From Arcobacter sp. (GTDB lineage: Bacteria > Campylobacterota > Campylobacteria > Campylobacterales > Arcobacteraceae), in the NCBI GenBank assembly GCA_020048055.1, contig JAIFNA010000009.1, positions 186,001-250,000 of the forward strand: a stretch of DNA of 64,000 nucleotides. The letters run 5' to 3'. The position numbers and the translations under genes are program-made. Below are positions 58,145 to 63,118 of the stretch, in pieces. Under the pieces are notes generated by a model. That model was not told the origin of the DNA. It searched no databases and saw only the letters and a list, made by a program, of their open reading frames with translations. How positions within the stretch are numbered: the first letter of the stretch is position 1; every line of letters begins with the position of its first letter.

Positions 58145-60016
58145 CTATAAAGCTTTTGACATTACTGTGCTCAATCTTTTTGTAAAAATAATTGGGTCTT
58201 TTATATCCATACCTTCACTAATCTTAGCAAGATCAAGAAGAAGATGAGAAATATTTTCAATCATATTTTCATCACTTGACTGATTCAGTTTTTGAACGAT
58301 TTCATGGTCTGGATTAATTTCCAATATTGGTGCTGATTCTGGCATCTCTTGTCCCATCATTCTAAACATATGTGCCATTGATGCCATAGGGTCGCTACTA
58401 TCTTTTACAACGCAAGATGGACTATCACTTAATCTATCAGTTGTTCTTACATCTTTAACTAAATCTCCCAAAGTTGTTTTTATTTTTTCAACAATTGAGG
58501 CGAATTTCTCCTCAACCTCTTTTTTAGCTTCTTCACTTTGTTCTGTTTTTGGTGGCTCACACACTGTAATATCTTTTAGTTCCCAATCTTGGAATTTTCC
58601 AATACTTGGTGTTACTATCTCATCAATCTCTTTATCGTCAAGTATAAGAACTTCGATGTTGTTTTTTTTGTAACTTTCAAGAAGTGGTGAATTTCGTACA
58701 ACTTTCTCATCACTTCCTATAATGTAAAAAATTGCATTTTGTGAACTTTCAGCTCTCTCTTTGTACTCATTAAATGATGTCATTTTTTCAGAGTCATTTG
58801 TAGATTTATATCTCAAAAGCTCCATAATTGCATCTTTGTTTACATAATCTTGATACACACCCTCTTTTAAAGCTCTGTTGTACTCTTTAATAAAATCTTT
58901 GTATTTCTCTTCATCTTTACTTAGTTTTTTGATTTCACTTAATATTTTTTTGATTGAAGATTGTTTGATATTTGCCATTACTTTATTTTCTTGAAGCAAC
59001 TCTCTACTTACATTAAGTGGTAAATCTTCACTATCAATAATACCCCTTACAAATCTTAAATATGTTGGAAGTAGCTCTTTTTCACTATCAGTTATAAAAA
59101 CCCTTTTTACATAAAGCTTCACTCCAGGTGTAAAATCAGCTCTATACATATCCATAGGTGCCTTACTTGGGATATAAAAAAGTGTTGTATATTCACTTAC
59201 ACCTTCTGCTTTTGTGTGGATATAAAGCATTGGATTTTCACTATCATGTCCTATTGTTTTATAAAACTGATTATAATCTTCCTCTTTTAAACTTGATTTT
59301 GAATTTGTCCAAAGTGCTGTTGCTTCATTGATTTGCTCTTTTTTTGATTCTAGTGTTTTCTCTTTTGTCTCTTCATTTTCAACTTCCTCTTGGAAATTCA
59401 AAAAAATAGGATATGCAATATGATTTGAGTATTTTTTTACTATCTCTTTGATTTTATATTTTGAAGTGTAGTCGCCAATCTCATCATCTTTTAGTTTAAT
59501 GTAGATAATAGTTCCATTCTCCTCTTTAACACAAGGTGCTAATTCATAGCTTCCCTCGCCATCACTTGACCATTTGTAAGCTTGTGTTTCACCAGCTTTT
59601 TTACTAATAACATCAACTTTATCTGCAACCATAAATACAGAATAAAAACCAACACCAAATTGACCAATCAATTTACTATCTTTTTTAGCATCACCACTCA
59701 TATTTTCTAAAAATGATTTTGTTCCAGATTTTGCAATTGTTCCAAGAGAAGATATTAAATCAGCCTCACTCATCCCAATTCCATTATCCATAATTGTTAA
59801 AGATTTATCTTGTTCATCAAGTTTTATATTAACTTGTGGAGTTGTCACAAAATCTTTTAATTTTTCATCTGTTAATTTTAAATATTCTAATTTATCGATA
59901 GCATCGCTTGCATTTGAAACCAATTCCCTTATAAAAATCTCTTTATTTGAATACAAAGAGTGGGTCATCAGTTTTAAAAGTTGTCCAACTTCTGTTTGAA
60001 ATTCGTGTTTTGCCAT
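58145..60016 (-). CDS. htpG: Chaperone HtpG (bacterial Hsp90)
   Basis: ATP-dependent chaperone, 623 residues. The GHKL ATPase domain has ELVSNASDAIDKLEYL, MDNGIGMSEADL, LGTIAKSGTKSF and GQFGVGFYSVFM; the middle domain has the catalytic-Arg segment LNVSRELLQ; the C-terminal dimerisation domain is complete. A CIRCE operator and a -10 box lie upstream, so heat-shock control by HrcA is likely. The DedA gene follows closely and may be co-transcribed. Confidence 0.96.
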   Translation of the reverse strand: MAKHEFQTEVGQLLKLMTHSLYSNKEIFIRELVSNASDAIDKLEYLKLTDEKLKDFVTTPQVNIKLDEQDKSLTIMDNGIGMSEADLISSLGTIAKSGTKSFLENMSGDAKKDSKLIGQFGVGFYSVFMVADKVDVISKKAGETQAYKWSSDGEGSYELAPCVKEENGTIIYIKLKDDEIGDYTSKYKIKEIVKKYSNHIAYPIFLNFQEEVENEETKEKTLESKKEQINEATALWTNSKSSLKEEDYNQFYKTIGHDSENPMLYIHTKAEGVSEYTTLFYIPSKAPMDMYRADFTPGVKLYVKRVFITDSEKELLPTYLRFVRGIIDSEDLPLNVSRELLQENKVMANIKQSSIKKILSEIKKLSKDEEKYKDFIKEYNRALKEGVYQDYVNKDAIMELLRYKSTNDSEKMTSFNEYKERAESSQNAIFYIIGSDEKVVRNSPLLESYKKNNIEVLILDDKEIDEIVTPSIGKFQDWELKDITVCEPPKTEQSEEAKKEVEEKFASIVEKIKTTLGDLVKDVRTTDRLSDSPSCVVKDSSDPMASMAHMFRMMGQEMPESAPILEINPDHEIVQKLNQSSDENMIENISHLLLDLAKISEGMDIKDPIIFTKRLSTVMSKAL

Positions 60017-60116
60017 TTTTTCGCTCCTAGTTATAATAATTTTTGTGATTTTATTTGTTTAAAATCAATATTTCATATGTAAATATGATATGAACTTACT
60101 GATTTTCAAGGGGAAT

Positions 60117-60122
60117 AGTATA
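60117..60122 (-). promoter_or_regulatory. Candidate htpG -10 box (TATACT)
   Basis: On the minus strand the sequence reads TTTT-TATACT-ATTCC. It lies 15 bases from the CIRCE element, which therefore covers the -35 region and would block polymerase when bound. The predicted leader to the htpG ATG is about 95 bases. Confidence 0.5.
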
Positions 60123-60136
60123 AAAAGATTTATAAA

Positions 60137-60163
60137 TTAGCACTTAAAGTTTTAGAGTGCTAA
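60137..60163. promoter_or_regulatory. CIRCE element (HrcA operator) upstream of htpG
   Basis: TTAGCACTT-N9-GAGTGCTAA differs from the CIRCE consensus (TTAGCACTC-N9-GAGTGCTAA) at one base. The arms can pair over eight bases. It lies about 120 bases before the htpG start and overlaps the stop codon of the glycosyltransferase gene. CIRCE is known from groESL and hrcA-grpE-dnaK operons; here it faces htpG. Confidence 0.88.
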
Positions 60164-61006
60164 TTTTTGCAATATTGAGTCTAATTTACTGTATTGTGTT
60201 TCATAGTTAAGTTCAGAGGCAATTTCATAATTCTCTTTTTTTATCTTCTTAAATTCACTTTTTACTCTGAGTAACATATCGATTTTATAAGACAAATTTG
60301 GATCATCCGGACCATCCATAATTGAAAAAACATCTAAAATCTCAATTGCATTATTATTTGTTGTTGTAAAAACTACACATTTATTTGCCATAGCTTTTAA
60401 TACAGAATATGCAAAATTCTCAATCGATGTAGGAAGGACTAAAATATCAGCTATATTAAAAATCTCTTTATCTAAAATAATCACATGATCAATCAGCTTT
60501 TTATGTGTTAACAACTCCTGGGCATAAACAGTTTCCTTATCACTATCAGCAGTAACAAAACCTCTCCAATTTGTCATCTCTAAATTTTCTAAAATATTGC
60601 AAAACTTAACAAAACCATTTTTTGAAAAATCTTTTGCTGTAAAATAAATAATTTTTTCCTCTTTGGCTATGCCATATTGTTCTTTAAAAACTTTTTGAGC
60701 CTCTTTTTTTTTAAAGTCCACAACTTCAACAGCTGGTAAAATAACTTCAATTTTATCGCCATCAAGCCCTAAAAGTTTAATAATTTTATTTTTCAAAATC
60801 GTTGAATTTACAATAGTTACTTTACTGTTTTTCATAAGTTTTTTTGAAAACTCATTTAATGAACCGCTGTGAAAATATATATCAGGATATTGTGTTTTTT
60901 TTAAACCGAAAGCTTGTAGTAAACCTCCATTTTTATATAGCTTCACATCTCTTATTGACTTTAAATATCTAACTAAATTTGTTTCTGTTTTATAATAAAT
61001 AATCAT
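60152..61006 (-). CDS. Glycosyltransferase (GT4-like), short form
   Basis: A 284-residue protein resembling group 1 (GT-B) glycosyltransferases: an N-terminal-domain portion with YFHSGSLNEFSKKL, a linker VILPAVEVVDF, and the C-terminal nucleotide-sugar domain with KIIYFTAKDFSKNG, IADILVLPTSIENFAYSVLKAMANKCVVFTT (the ExxG-like region is changed to ENFAYS). It is shorter than usual, lacking about 80 N-terminal residues, though the start codon is clear. Donor and acceptor are unknown. It is 10 bases downstream of the PPK2 pair. Confidence 0.7.
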   Translation of the reverse strand: MIIYYKTETNLVRYLKSIRDVKLYKNGGLLQAFGLKKTQYPDIYFHSGSLNEFSKKLMKNSKVTIVNSTILKNKIIKLLGLDGDKIEVILPAVEVVDFKKKEAQKVFKEQYGIAKEEKIIYFTAKDFSKNGFVKFCNILENLEMTNWRGFVTADSDKETVYAQELLTHKKLIDHVIILDKEIFNIADILVLPTSIENFAYSVLKAMANKCVVFTTTNNNAIEILDVFSIMDGPDDPNLSYKIDMLLRVKSEFKKIKKENYEIASELNYETQYSKLDSILQKLAL

Positions 61007-61016
61007 GAAATTCCAA

Positions 61017-62174
61017 CTAGTAATCGTTATTTTTTCTCATTCTTGAGAGCTCTTGTGATACACTGATATTAAATTCCTCATCAGGTTCAAAATTTAATCC
61101 ATAATTTTTTTGTTCATAATCGATGCTATTTAATATGATTTTAACAGCTTCAATTCTAGCTTTATGCTTATTATCACTTCTAACTATATGCCAAGGTGCA
61201 GATTTTGAATTTGTTCGTCTAAGCATCTCATATTTTTTGTCACTAAATTCATCCCACAAATCTTGCGCTTGAAGATCAACTTCGCTAAGTTTCCAATGTT
61301 TTAATTCACAAGATTGTCTACTTTCAAATCTTGCTAATTGCTCTGCTTTTGAAACACTAAAATAAAGTTTAATCAAAATCATATCTTGACGAACTAAATC
61401 ATGTTCAAAATTAACGACATCTTCCATAAAAATCTCATATTGTTCATTTGTACAAAATCCAAATATAGGTTCAACCATTGCCCTGTTATACCAGCTTCTA
61501 TCAAATAAAACTATCTCACCGCCTGTTGGAAAATGTTCAATGTACTTTTGAAAAAACCATTGATGTCTTTGTGTATCTGTTGGTTTACCAAGTGCTACAA
61601 CACGGTAATGTCTTGAATTCATATATCTTGTAATTCTCCTAATTGCTCCACCTTTACCACTTGCATCTCTCCCTTCAAAAAGAATTATCATCTTTTTTTT
61701 AGTCTTTTCAAGGTGTTTTTGAAGTTTAATAAGTTCAACTTGATAACCTTTCATCTCCTCGTAATCATAAATCTTTTGAATCCCTTTGGTTAAGGCCAAT
61801 GGATCAAGTGCTTTATAATTACCTAATAAATTTTTAATTGTTTTACATTCATCAAATTCCGATTTTGAAATTGAAACTTGTGGTTCAGTTTTTTTTACAG
61901 GTTGCGTTATTTTTTTCTTTGTAACCACTTTGGAAATAAGTTTATCTTTTAATAAAACCACGCTTTCATTTTCCATTGTTGCTTTATAGTCATTGAGAAG
62001 TTTAAATGCTTTTTTATCATCCAATTTATCTAATTTAGTAAATCCTAGAACTTTTACATACCGTTTTGTCCCAATTTGAAATCTTGCAATATATTTTTTT
62101 CCATAAGTTGAATGCTCCTCTTTACCTATATAAAGTCCTGCAAAGTCAGTTTTTTCAAAATCTTTTAAATTCAT
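61017..62174 (-). CDS. Polyphosphate kinase 2 family protein, N-terminally extended
   Basis: PPK2 enzymes transfer phosphate between polyphosphate and nucleotides. The 385-residue protein has an N-terminal extension of about 125 residues, then the catalytic domain with Walker A FEGRDASGKGGAIRRI, Walker B VLFDRSWYNRAMVEP, and the lid region SVSKAEQLARFESR. The active-site residues look intact. It overlaps its paralogue by four bases; the two genes form one operon. Confidence 0.88.
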   Translation of the reverse strand: MNLKDFEKTDFAGLYIGKEEHSTYGKKYIARFQIGTKRYVKVLGFTKLDKLDDKKAFKLLNDYKATMENESVVLLKDKLISKVVTKKKITQPVKKTEPQVSISKSEFDECKTIKNLLGNYKALDPLALTKGIQKIYDYEEMKGYQVELIKLQKHLEKTKKKMIILFEGRDASGKGGAIRRITRYMNSRHYRVVALGKPTDTQRHQWFFQKYIEHFPTGGEIVLFDRSWYNRAMVEPIFGFCTNEQYEIFMEDVVNFEHDLVRQDMILIKLYFSVSKAEQLARFESRQSCELKHWKLSEVDLQAQDLWDEFSDKKYEMLRRTNSKSAPWHIVRSDNKHKARIEAVKIILNSIDYEQKNYGLNFEPDEEFNISVSQELSRMRKNNDY

Positions 62175-63118
62175 CTATGTTCCTCTTTTTTAAATGTATT
62201 CTCTTGCTCCATAATTACAATCTCATCAGTTCCACTGATTATTATTTTCTTATTTCTTCTCAAATCTAAATCTTTATTTTTTTTCTCATAATCTAGTTTT
62301 CTAAGGATAAATTTCATAGTTTCCATCCTTGCTATTTTTTTATCGTCACTTCTTACTATTGTCCATGGAGCAACATCTGTGTGTGAAGCCATAAGCATTG
62401 AAAATTTAGCCACTGTATATTTATCCCATAAATCTTGAGCCAACTCATCAACTGGGCTAAGTTTAAATTGTTTTAAAGGATCTAGCTTTCTCTCTTTAAA
62501 TCTTTTCTCTTGCTCTTTTTTTGAAACACTAAAATAAAATTTAAAAAGCTTGATGCCTGATTTTACAAGCATTTTTTCAAACTCAGGAACTTCTCTTAAA
62601 AATTCATGATGCTCCTCAGATGTACAAAATCCCATAACAGGCTCAACACCACCACGGTTATACCAACTTCTATCAAATATAACAATCTCTCCAGCACTTG
62701 GAAGATGAGCTGTGTATCTTTGAAAATACCATTGAGTTTTTTCTGTGTCACTTGGTTTTTCCAGGGCAACTATTCTAGCCCCTCTTGGATTTAGATGCTC
62801 TGTAATTCTTTTAATTGTTCCACCTTTTCCAGCAGCATCTCGCCCTTCAAATATCATTAAAATTTTTTCACCAGTTTCTTTGATGTGATTTTGAAGCTTT
62901 AAAAGCTCGATTTGAAAAAGTGTGAGTTGTTTTTCATATTCTAAAGTCTCTTTTTTTACCCATATTTGAACTTTTCCATTTTTCTCTTTCATCTCTTTTC
63001 GTTTTCTATCTTTTGATTGAGAGTCATGTTTTATATCTTCATTTGTATCTATCTCTTCACCATCTTTAAATTCATCTTTAATGATATTTCCGTTTATCGT
63101 ACCAGTATTATTACCCAT
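62171..63118 (-). CDS. ppk2: Polyphosphate kinase 2 family protein
   Basis: A 315-residue PPK2 with Walker A FEGRDAAGKGGTIKRI, Walker B VIFDRSWYNRGGVEP and lid segment SVSKKEQEKRFKER. A charged, Glu/Lys-rich 70-residue N-terminus precedes the domain. It is about the length of canonical class I PPK2 enzymes such as those making GTP from GDP and polyphosphate; specificity cannot be read. It follows nspC by 12 bases and overlaps the longer PPK2 gene. Confidence 0.9.
   Translation of the reverse strand: MGNNTGTINGNIIKDEFKDGEEIDTNEDIKHDSQSKDRKRKEMKEKNGKVQIWVKKETLEYEKQLTLFQIELLKLQNHIKETGEKILMIFEGRDAAGKGGTIKRITEHLNPRGARIVALEKPSDTEKTQWYFQRYTAHLPSAGEIVIFDRSWYNRGGVEPVMGFCTSEEHHEFLREVPEFEKMLVKSGIKLFKFYFSVSKKEQEKRFKERKLDPLKQFKLSPVDELAQDLWDKYTVAKFSMLMASHTDVAPWTIVRSDDKKIARMETMKFILRKLDYEKKNKDLDLRRNKKIIISGTDEIVIMEQENTFKKEEHR

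Follow-up and report, generated by a model that had tools for sequence, protein, structure and literature searches.

CIRCE upstream of htpG in Arcobacteraceae and a predicted HrcA-only chaperone regulon in a genus without hspR

A near-perfect CIRCE operator lies upstream of htpG (Hsp90) in a 64,000-nt stretch of an Arcobacter sp. genome, the whole of which we call the window. We consider it very probable that HrcA represses htpG through this palindrome and that the chaperone regulon of this genus is under HrcA alone. The operators, their conservation and the presence or absence of the genes were read from sequence; binding, repression and heat release at these operators we infer by analogy with HrcA of other bacteria. 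In unstressed cells, HrcA on the palindrome would shut off htpG transcription, and heat or misfolded protein would inactivate HrcA and release htpG. The predicted HrcA set in this genome comprises hrcA-grpE-dnaK, groESL, clpB, cbpA and htpG. Relatives divide this set between two repressors, HrcA acting at CIRCE and HspR at HAIR. In this genus hspR is gone, the HAIR sites have decayed and cbpA has gained a CIRCE that encloses the -35 box. Because the partner repressor HspR has been lost, HrcA appears to be the only known chaperone switch in this genus; judged from sequence, neither htpG nor the other main chaperone operons have any recognised heat-shock control here besides HrcA on CIRCE.

The htpG operator and its candidate promoters

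The features of the htpG region are the following.

58145..60016, minus strand: htpG (Hsp90), 623 aa; matches NCBIfam NF003555 (molecular chaperone HtpG) with 719 bits, cut-off 371
60024..60028, minus strand: Shine-Dalgarno-like AGGAG before htpG, read from the sequence
60082..60109, minus strand: TTGAAA-16-CATATT, a promoter-like alternative lying farther from CIRCE on its downstream side; consensus scan, 9/12
60117..60122, minus strand: candidate -10 box TATACT, 14 bases past CIRCE; from sequence and alignment
60137..60163, minus strand (htpG strand): predicted CIRCE operator, TTAGCACTC-TAAAACTTT-AAGTGCTAA, 17/18 consensus; site kept 5′ of htpG in relatives
60152..61006, minus strand: glycosyltransferase ORF, whose 3′ end, stop codon included, overlaps the left CIRCE arm

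As CIRCE consensus we used TTAGCACTC-N9-GAGTGCTAA, with few mismatches permitted. On the plus strand the site reads TTAGCACTT-AAAGTTTTA-GAGTGCTAA (60137-60163) and agrees with CIRCE at 17 of the 18 fixed positions; its distance from the htpG ATG is 120 bp. The near-perfect CIRCE claimed at htpG by an earlier, sequence-only reading was borne out: with one mismatch, the site was the sole match in the 64-kb window (≤3 mismatches), and 100 dinucleotide-preserving shuffles gave none. The scan also agreed with that reading on dnaJ (about 14671, plus strand), the only other window chaperone checked, which is without CIRCE. Unlike it, cbpA, the second DnaJ-type gene of the genome, does carry the operator.

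CIRCE overlaps the stop codon (60152-60154) of the glycosyltransferase gene upstream of htpG, a point that the earlier reading did not mention. This neighbour is the same in the other genus members checked and differs in other genera. Immediately upstream of the glycosyltransferase and htpG are two tandem PPK2-type polyphosphate kinase genes (61017-63118, minus strand).

The same reading had placed a -10 box 15 bases downstream of the operator on the htpG strand, and the operator over the -35 region. TATACT is indeed present at 60117-60122, but the distance is 14 bases. A spacer of 17 bp would put the -35 position at 60140-60145, inside the right CIRCE arm, as claimed; however, the hexamer found there, AAGTGC, is no -35 box, and the promoter scan omits it. 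Aligned genus members have TATTAT or TATCAT at 60115-60120, two bases beyond the TATACT position, and a TAnTAT near that position is common to five of them. The promoter pair at 60082-60109 is weak, since the match count of the scan equals that in shuffles. In most Arcobacteraceae the alignment shows a conserved -10 box about 40 bp past the htpG CIRCE; the operator would therefore sit upstream of the promoter, which is unusual for HrcA. In Campylobacter jejuni, HrcA footprints cover the transcription start (PMC7464140). An operator covering the -35 region is only one of two promoter readings, the near one (TATACT) and the far one (about 40 bp past CIRCE), and the near promoter, 14 bases past the operator, is a plausible candidate for htpG here. 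From the near promoter HrcA would block the polymerase directly, whereas with the far promoter it would act from just upstream.

The predicted HrcA regulon and the family-wide htpG site

The assembly (2.0 Mb in 18 contigs, 99.99% complete) contains six CIRCE sites with at most three mismatches, namely two at hrcA-grpE-dnaK and one each at groESL, clpB, cbpA and htpG; the reversed CIRCE pattern gave no match in the same genome. The groESL site is at C1:69248 and the hrcA-grpE-dnaK pair at C15:21544/21619, this operon being read as far as grpE. HrcA is a short form of 261 aa, which matched NF003033 (PRK03911, HrcA family) with 231 bits (E 1.5e-68), just under the cut-off of 248; a TIGR00331 match covers residues 4-80. 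Its gene lies before grpE and was found in 58 of 61 Arcobacteraceae genomes. The checks proposed earlier thus found hrcA present and CIRCE at both groESL and hrcA-grpE-dnaK. As for sigma-32 (RpoH) heat-shock control, it was rejected: no rpoH scored over the cut-off in this genome or in 30 relatives, the sole match in this genome being a 640-aa RpoD-like frame below the cut-off.

Conservation was surveyed in 61 Arcobacteraceae genomes of 20 genera, 59 of which had enough DNA upstream of htpG. CIRCE (≤4 mismatches) was found 5′ of htpG in 54 of these 59, mostly about 107 bp before the ATG, with a chance expectation at this threshold of about 0.0009 matches per 300 bp; the palindrome is therefore conserved in relatives, as the sequence-only reading had asked to be checked. 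The five exceptions are G028, in which the htpG reading frame is broken, and four genomes of the divergent genus g7; these four are small, none has hspR, and hrcA too is missing from two of them. Two g7 genomes, G025 and G048 (L304, L313, L301, L314; 94-97% complete), yielded no hrcA, no hspR and no CIRCE; there is no recognisable heat-shock repressor for their chaperone genes. The genes upstream of htpG vary by genus, one of them being divergent, yet CIRCE persists, and hence the operator belongs to htpG.

The proposal that Hsp90 had been brought into the HrcA regulon in this lineage held as far as htpG belonging to the predicted regulon, but the site is family-wide in Arcobacteraceae rather than special to the lineage. 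Given the distribution in 54 of 59 genomes, htpG came under HrcA either before the family arose or early in its history. Outside Arcobacteraceae most Campylobacterales are without an htpG CIRCE; three families (f14, f17 and f5) have degenerate sites. Precisely, degenerate CIRCE-like palindromes were seen 45-135 bp before htpG at L151, L155 and L156 (f14), L153 and L158 (f17), L162 (f5) and L025. The degenerate sites in other families suggest that HrcA control of htpG may be older than Arcobacteraceae or of multiple origin. A perfect CIRCE also lies upstream of htpG in Clostridium tyrobutyricum (L064), and CIRCE at hsp90 is published for Clostridium cellulovorans and C. acetobutylicum (PMC8336468). 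In principle, control of Hsp90 by HrcA is already known, and it is not confined to this lineage. Two records titled Desulfosporosinus (L010, DYPS01000019.1) and Helicobacter pylori PMSS1 (L022, CAMCYD010000090.1) hold Arcobacteraceae htpG loci 86-87% identical to that of the window, and look like mislabelled metagenome assemblies.

Loss of hspR and exchange of operators

The HAIR operator is CTTGAGT-N7-ACTCAAG, and in Campylobacter and Helicobacter HspR shares chaperone genes with HrcA (PMC7464140, PMC6843607); clpB and cbpA are HspR-only in C. jejuni (PMC7464140). In most Arcobacteraceae cbpA and hspR are adjacent. No hspR was found in seven of seven clean genomes of this genus (this genome and six congeners). 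The hspR match in an eighth genus genome, G116, was rejected as lying on a contaminant contig and was set aside because the adjacent cbpA is only 55.8% identical to that of this genome and G116 is listed with 7% contamination; cbpA identities among congeners are mostly 82-89%, with 69% in G055. The gene was also missing from G013 and G041 (genus g13), and from all four g7 genomes. In G013 and G041 it is gone exactly between cbpA and ftsZ (the latter named by eye), which is its place in relatives; in this genome prmC follows cbpA, with no hspR there. We observed cbpA between secA and prmC in this genus (L103, G000:C18), and adjoining hspR and ftsZ in related genera (L176-L178), with prmC just upstream in G011. 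As the neighbours of cbpA differ, the locus was rearranged around the loss of hspR.

In a four-protein tree the sampled genus members form one group (100%) and G013 and G041 another (99%), with a poorly supported backbone between them, and a single hspR loss for the genus and G013/G041 was not rejected (AU p = 0.43). The loss in g7 is a separate event.

The operators at cbpA follow the presence of hspR. HAIR was found upstream of cbpA in 46/46 hspR-bearing vs 0/13 hspR-less genomes (G030 being counted as positive after a rescan from the corrected cbpA start), whereas CIRCE (≤2 mismatches) was found there in 8/13 hspR-less genomes (six of this genus, G013 and G041) vs 0/46 hspR-bearing ones. 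In the genus member G047 no CIRCE was found in the 325 bp before cbpA. Since g7 lost hspR without gaining CIRCE at cbpA, the loss does not force the operator swap, and takeover by HrcA is one outcome and no rule. The cbpA CIRCEs include a TTGACA that stands, normally spaced, before a TATAAT-like box; the repressor would therefore sit on the cbpA promoter, as HAIR does in relatives, where it also contains TTGACT. The sequence-only reading, right about HrcA at htpG, was incomplete in that it missed both the loss of hspR in the genus and the HAIR-to-CIRCE exchange at cbpA. A CIRCE with embedded TTGACA was also seen upstream of an hsp20-family gene in hspR-bearing genera (L078 in G049; L385 in G014); the design matches that of the cbpA CIRCE of this genus, and in G014 there are two such sites, separated by 32 bp.

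HAIR is retained at groESL, hrcA, clpB and cbpA in the family members that have hspR. Upstream of clpB, HAIR (≤3 mismatches) was found in 42 of 43 hspR-bearing genomes and at chance level in hspR-less ones. In this genome the HAIR scan at cbpA, clpB, hrcA and groESL gave chance-level matches, except for a 3-mismatch match at clpB that overlaps a CIRCE arm. The clpB CIRCE itself was present in 53 of 55 genomes. In this genus and neighbouring genera its distance from the ATG is about 53 bp; in hspR-bearing genera it is mostly near the start codon, where the right arm and the AAGGAG ribosome-binding site overlap. In most of the latter (e.g. L243-L248, L346, L352) the right arm (AAGGAGTGCTAA) coincides with the Shine-Dalgarno sequence, so the operator may affect translation too.

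At htpG, a HAIR-like repeat lies 12-13 bp past CIRCE in 45 of 45 hspR-bearing relatives. It reads CTTTAGC-N7-TATAAAG and is followed by an extended -10 box (TGnTAAAAT); the distance between the centres of CIRCE and repeat is 36 bp in 44 genomes and 37 bp in one, and the 12-bp linker shows no conservation over its first nine bases. Like HAIR, the repeat has a 7-7-7 layout, and its left half comes close to CTTTAGT, the half-site in the groESL HAIR of the same genomes. In hspR-less genomes it is decayed or absent, eroded remnants being retained at the same place in G060 and G055. The score of the repeat is circular, because the motif was read from the genomes that it scores; the points independent of it are that the repeat is absent from hspR-less genomes, keeps a constant spacing, has the 7-7-7 layout and shares a half-site with the groESL HAIR. 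HAIR and CIRCE are spaced by 36-38 bp at clpB and hrcA and by 57-58 bp at groESL in most genomes scanned, and with these spacings all may occupy the same helix face. HspR would bind the htpG repeat and may contact HrcA, by analogy with C. jejuni, where the two proteins contact each other (PMC7464140). We hold it about evenly balanced that htpG in hspR-bearing Arcobacteraceae is under a pair of fixed geometry, HrcA on CIRCE upstream and HspR on a degenerate HAIR over the promoter, 36 bp centre to centre and reversed in order with respect to clpB and hrcA (36-38 bp), and that in this genus, with hspR lost, HrcA took the whole chaperone regulon, the HAIR-to-CIRCE exchange at cbpA keeping the -35 box inside the operator.

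Alternative readings and known systems

The palindrome could belong to the upstream glycosyltransferase gene, as its terminator or a 3′ hairpin, with an incidental or secondary likeness to CIRCE. The stop codon of that gene lies within it, and its predicted RNA fold is stable (-11.8 kcal/mol, z -5.2). However, a terminator scan found none and no clean T-run directly follows the stem; the 18 conserved positions fit CIRCE and not a generic stem, and in other genera the site is kept at htpG beside quite different or divergent upstream genes. We consider this very unlikely, and the negative scan and the persistence of the site despite changed upstream genes led us to reject a terminator as the main function, though the palindrome could serve in both roles. 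The strong predicted hairpin would also suit a CIRCE working mainly in the htpG leader RNA, on mRNA stability or translation, with transcription starting upstream of the site; CIRCE of Bacillus subtilis also influences mRNA half-life. In all hspR-bearing relatives, though, conservation is seen downstream of CIRCE, in a promoter-like block, and not in the upstream flanks, which makes this account just as improbable.

It is hardly credible, lastly, that the HrcA site is real but a relic, with another regulator chiefly controlling htpG in this genus. The HAIR-like block and its promoter were lost here, so that the promoter was rebuilt, but CIRCE is held at 17/18 in all seven genus members examined, with its right arm in non-coding DNA, whereas the leader diverges elsewhere. 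Repression of htpG by HrcA at CIRCE is the reading that we prefer.

C. jejuni HrcA is a direct CIRCE-binding heat repressor (PMC7464140). C. jejuni and H. pylori resemble this genome in having HrcA-CIRCE at groESL and hrcA-grpE-dnaK, no rpoH and repressor-based heat-shock control, but their HrcA targets are nested in the HspR regulon, whereas here HspR is absent and HrcA would add clpB, cbpA and htpG (PMC7464140, PMC6843607). C. cellulovorans and C. acetobutylicum also have an exact or near-exact CIRCE upstream of htpG; they belong to a distant phylum, and a HAIR/HspR exchange is not described there (PMC8336468). Delta-proteobacteria share a predicted CIRCE regulon with groESL as constant member, but there htpG is predicted under a sigma-32-like promoter (PMC545781), Arcobacteraceae being without rpoH.

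HrcA and HspR have been studied jointly mainly in Campylobacter and Helicobacter, with the HrcA regulon inside that of HspR. The Arcobacteraceae form a natural series, from dual-repressor genera to a genus without HspR and with a wider HrcA regulon, and to small-genome members without both. This series makes the collapse of a two-repressor circuit to one directly testable, and predicts which promoters change hands.
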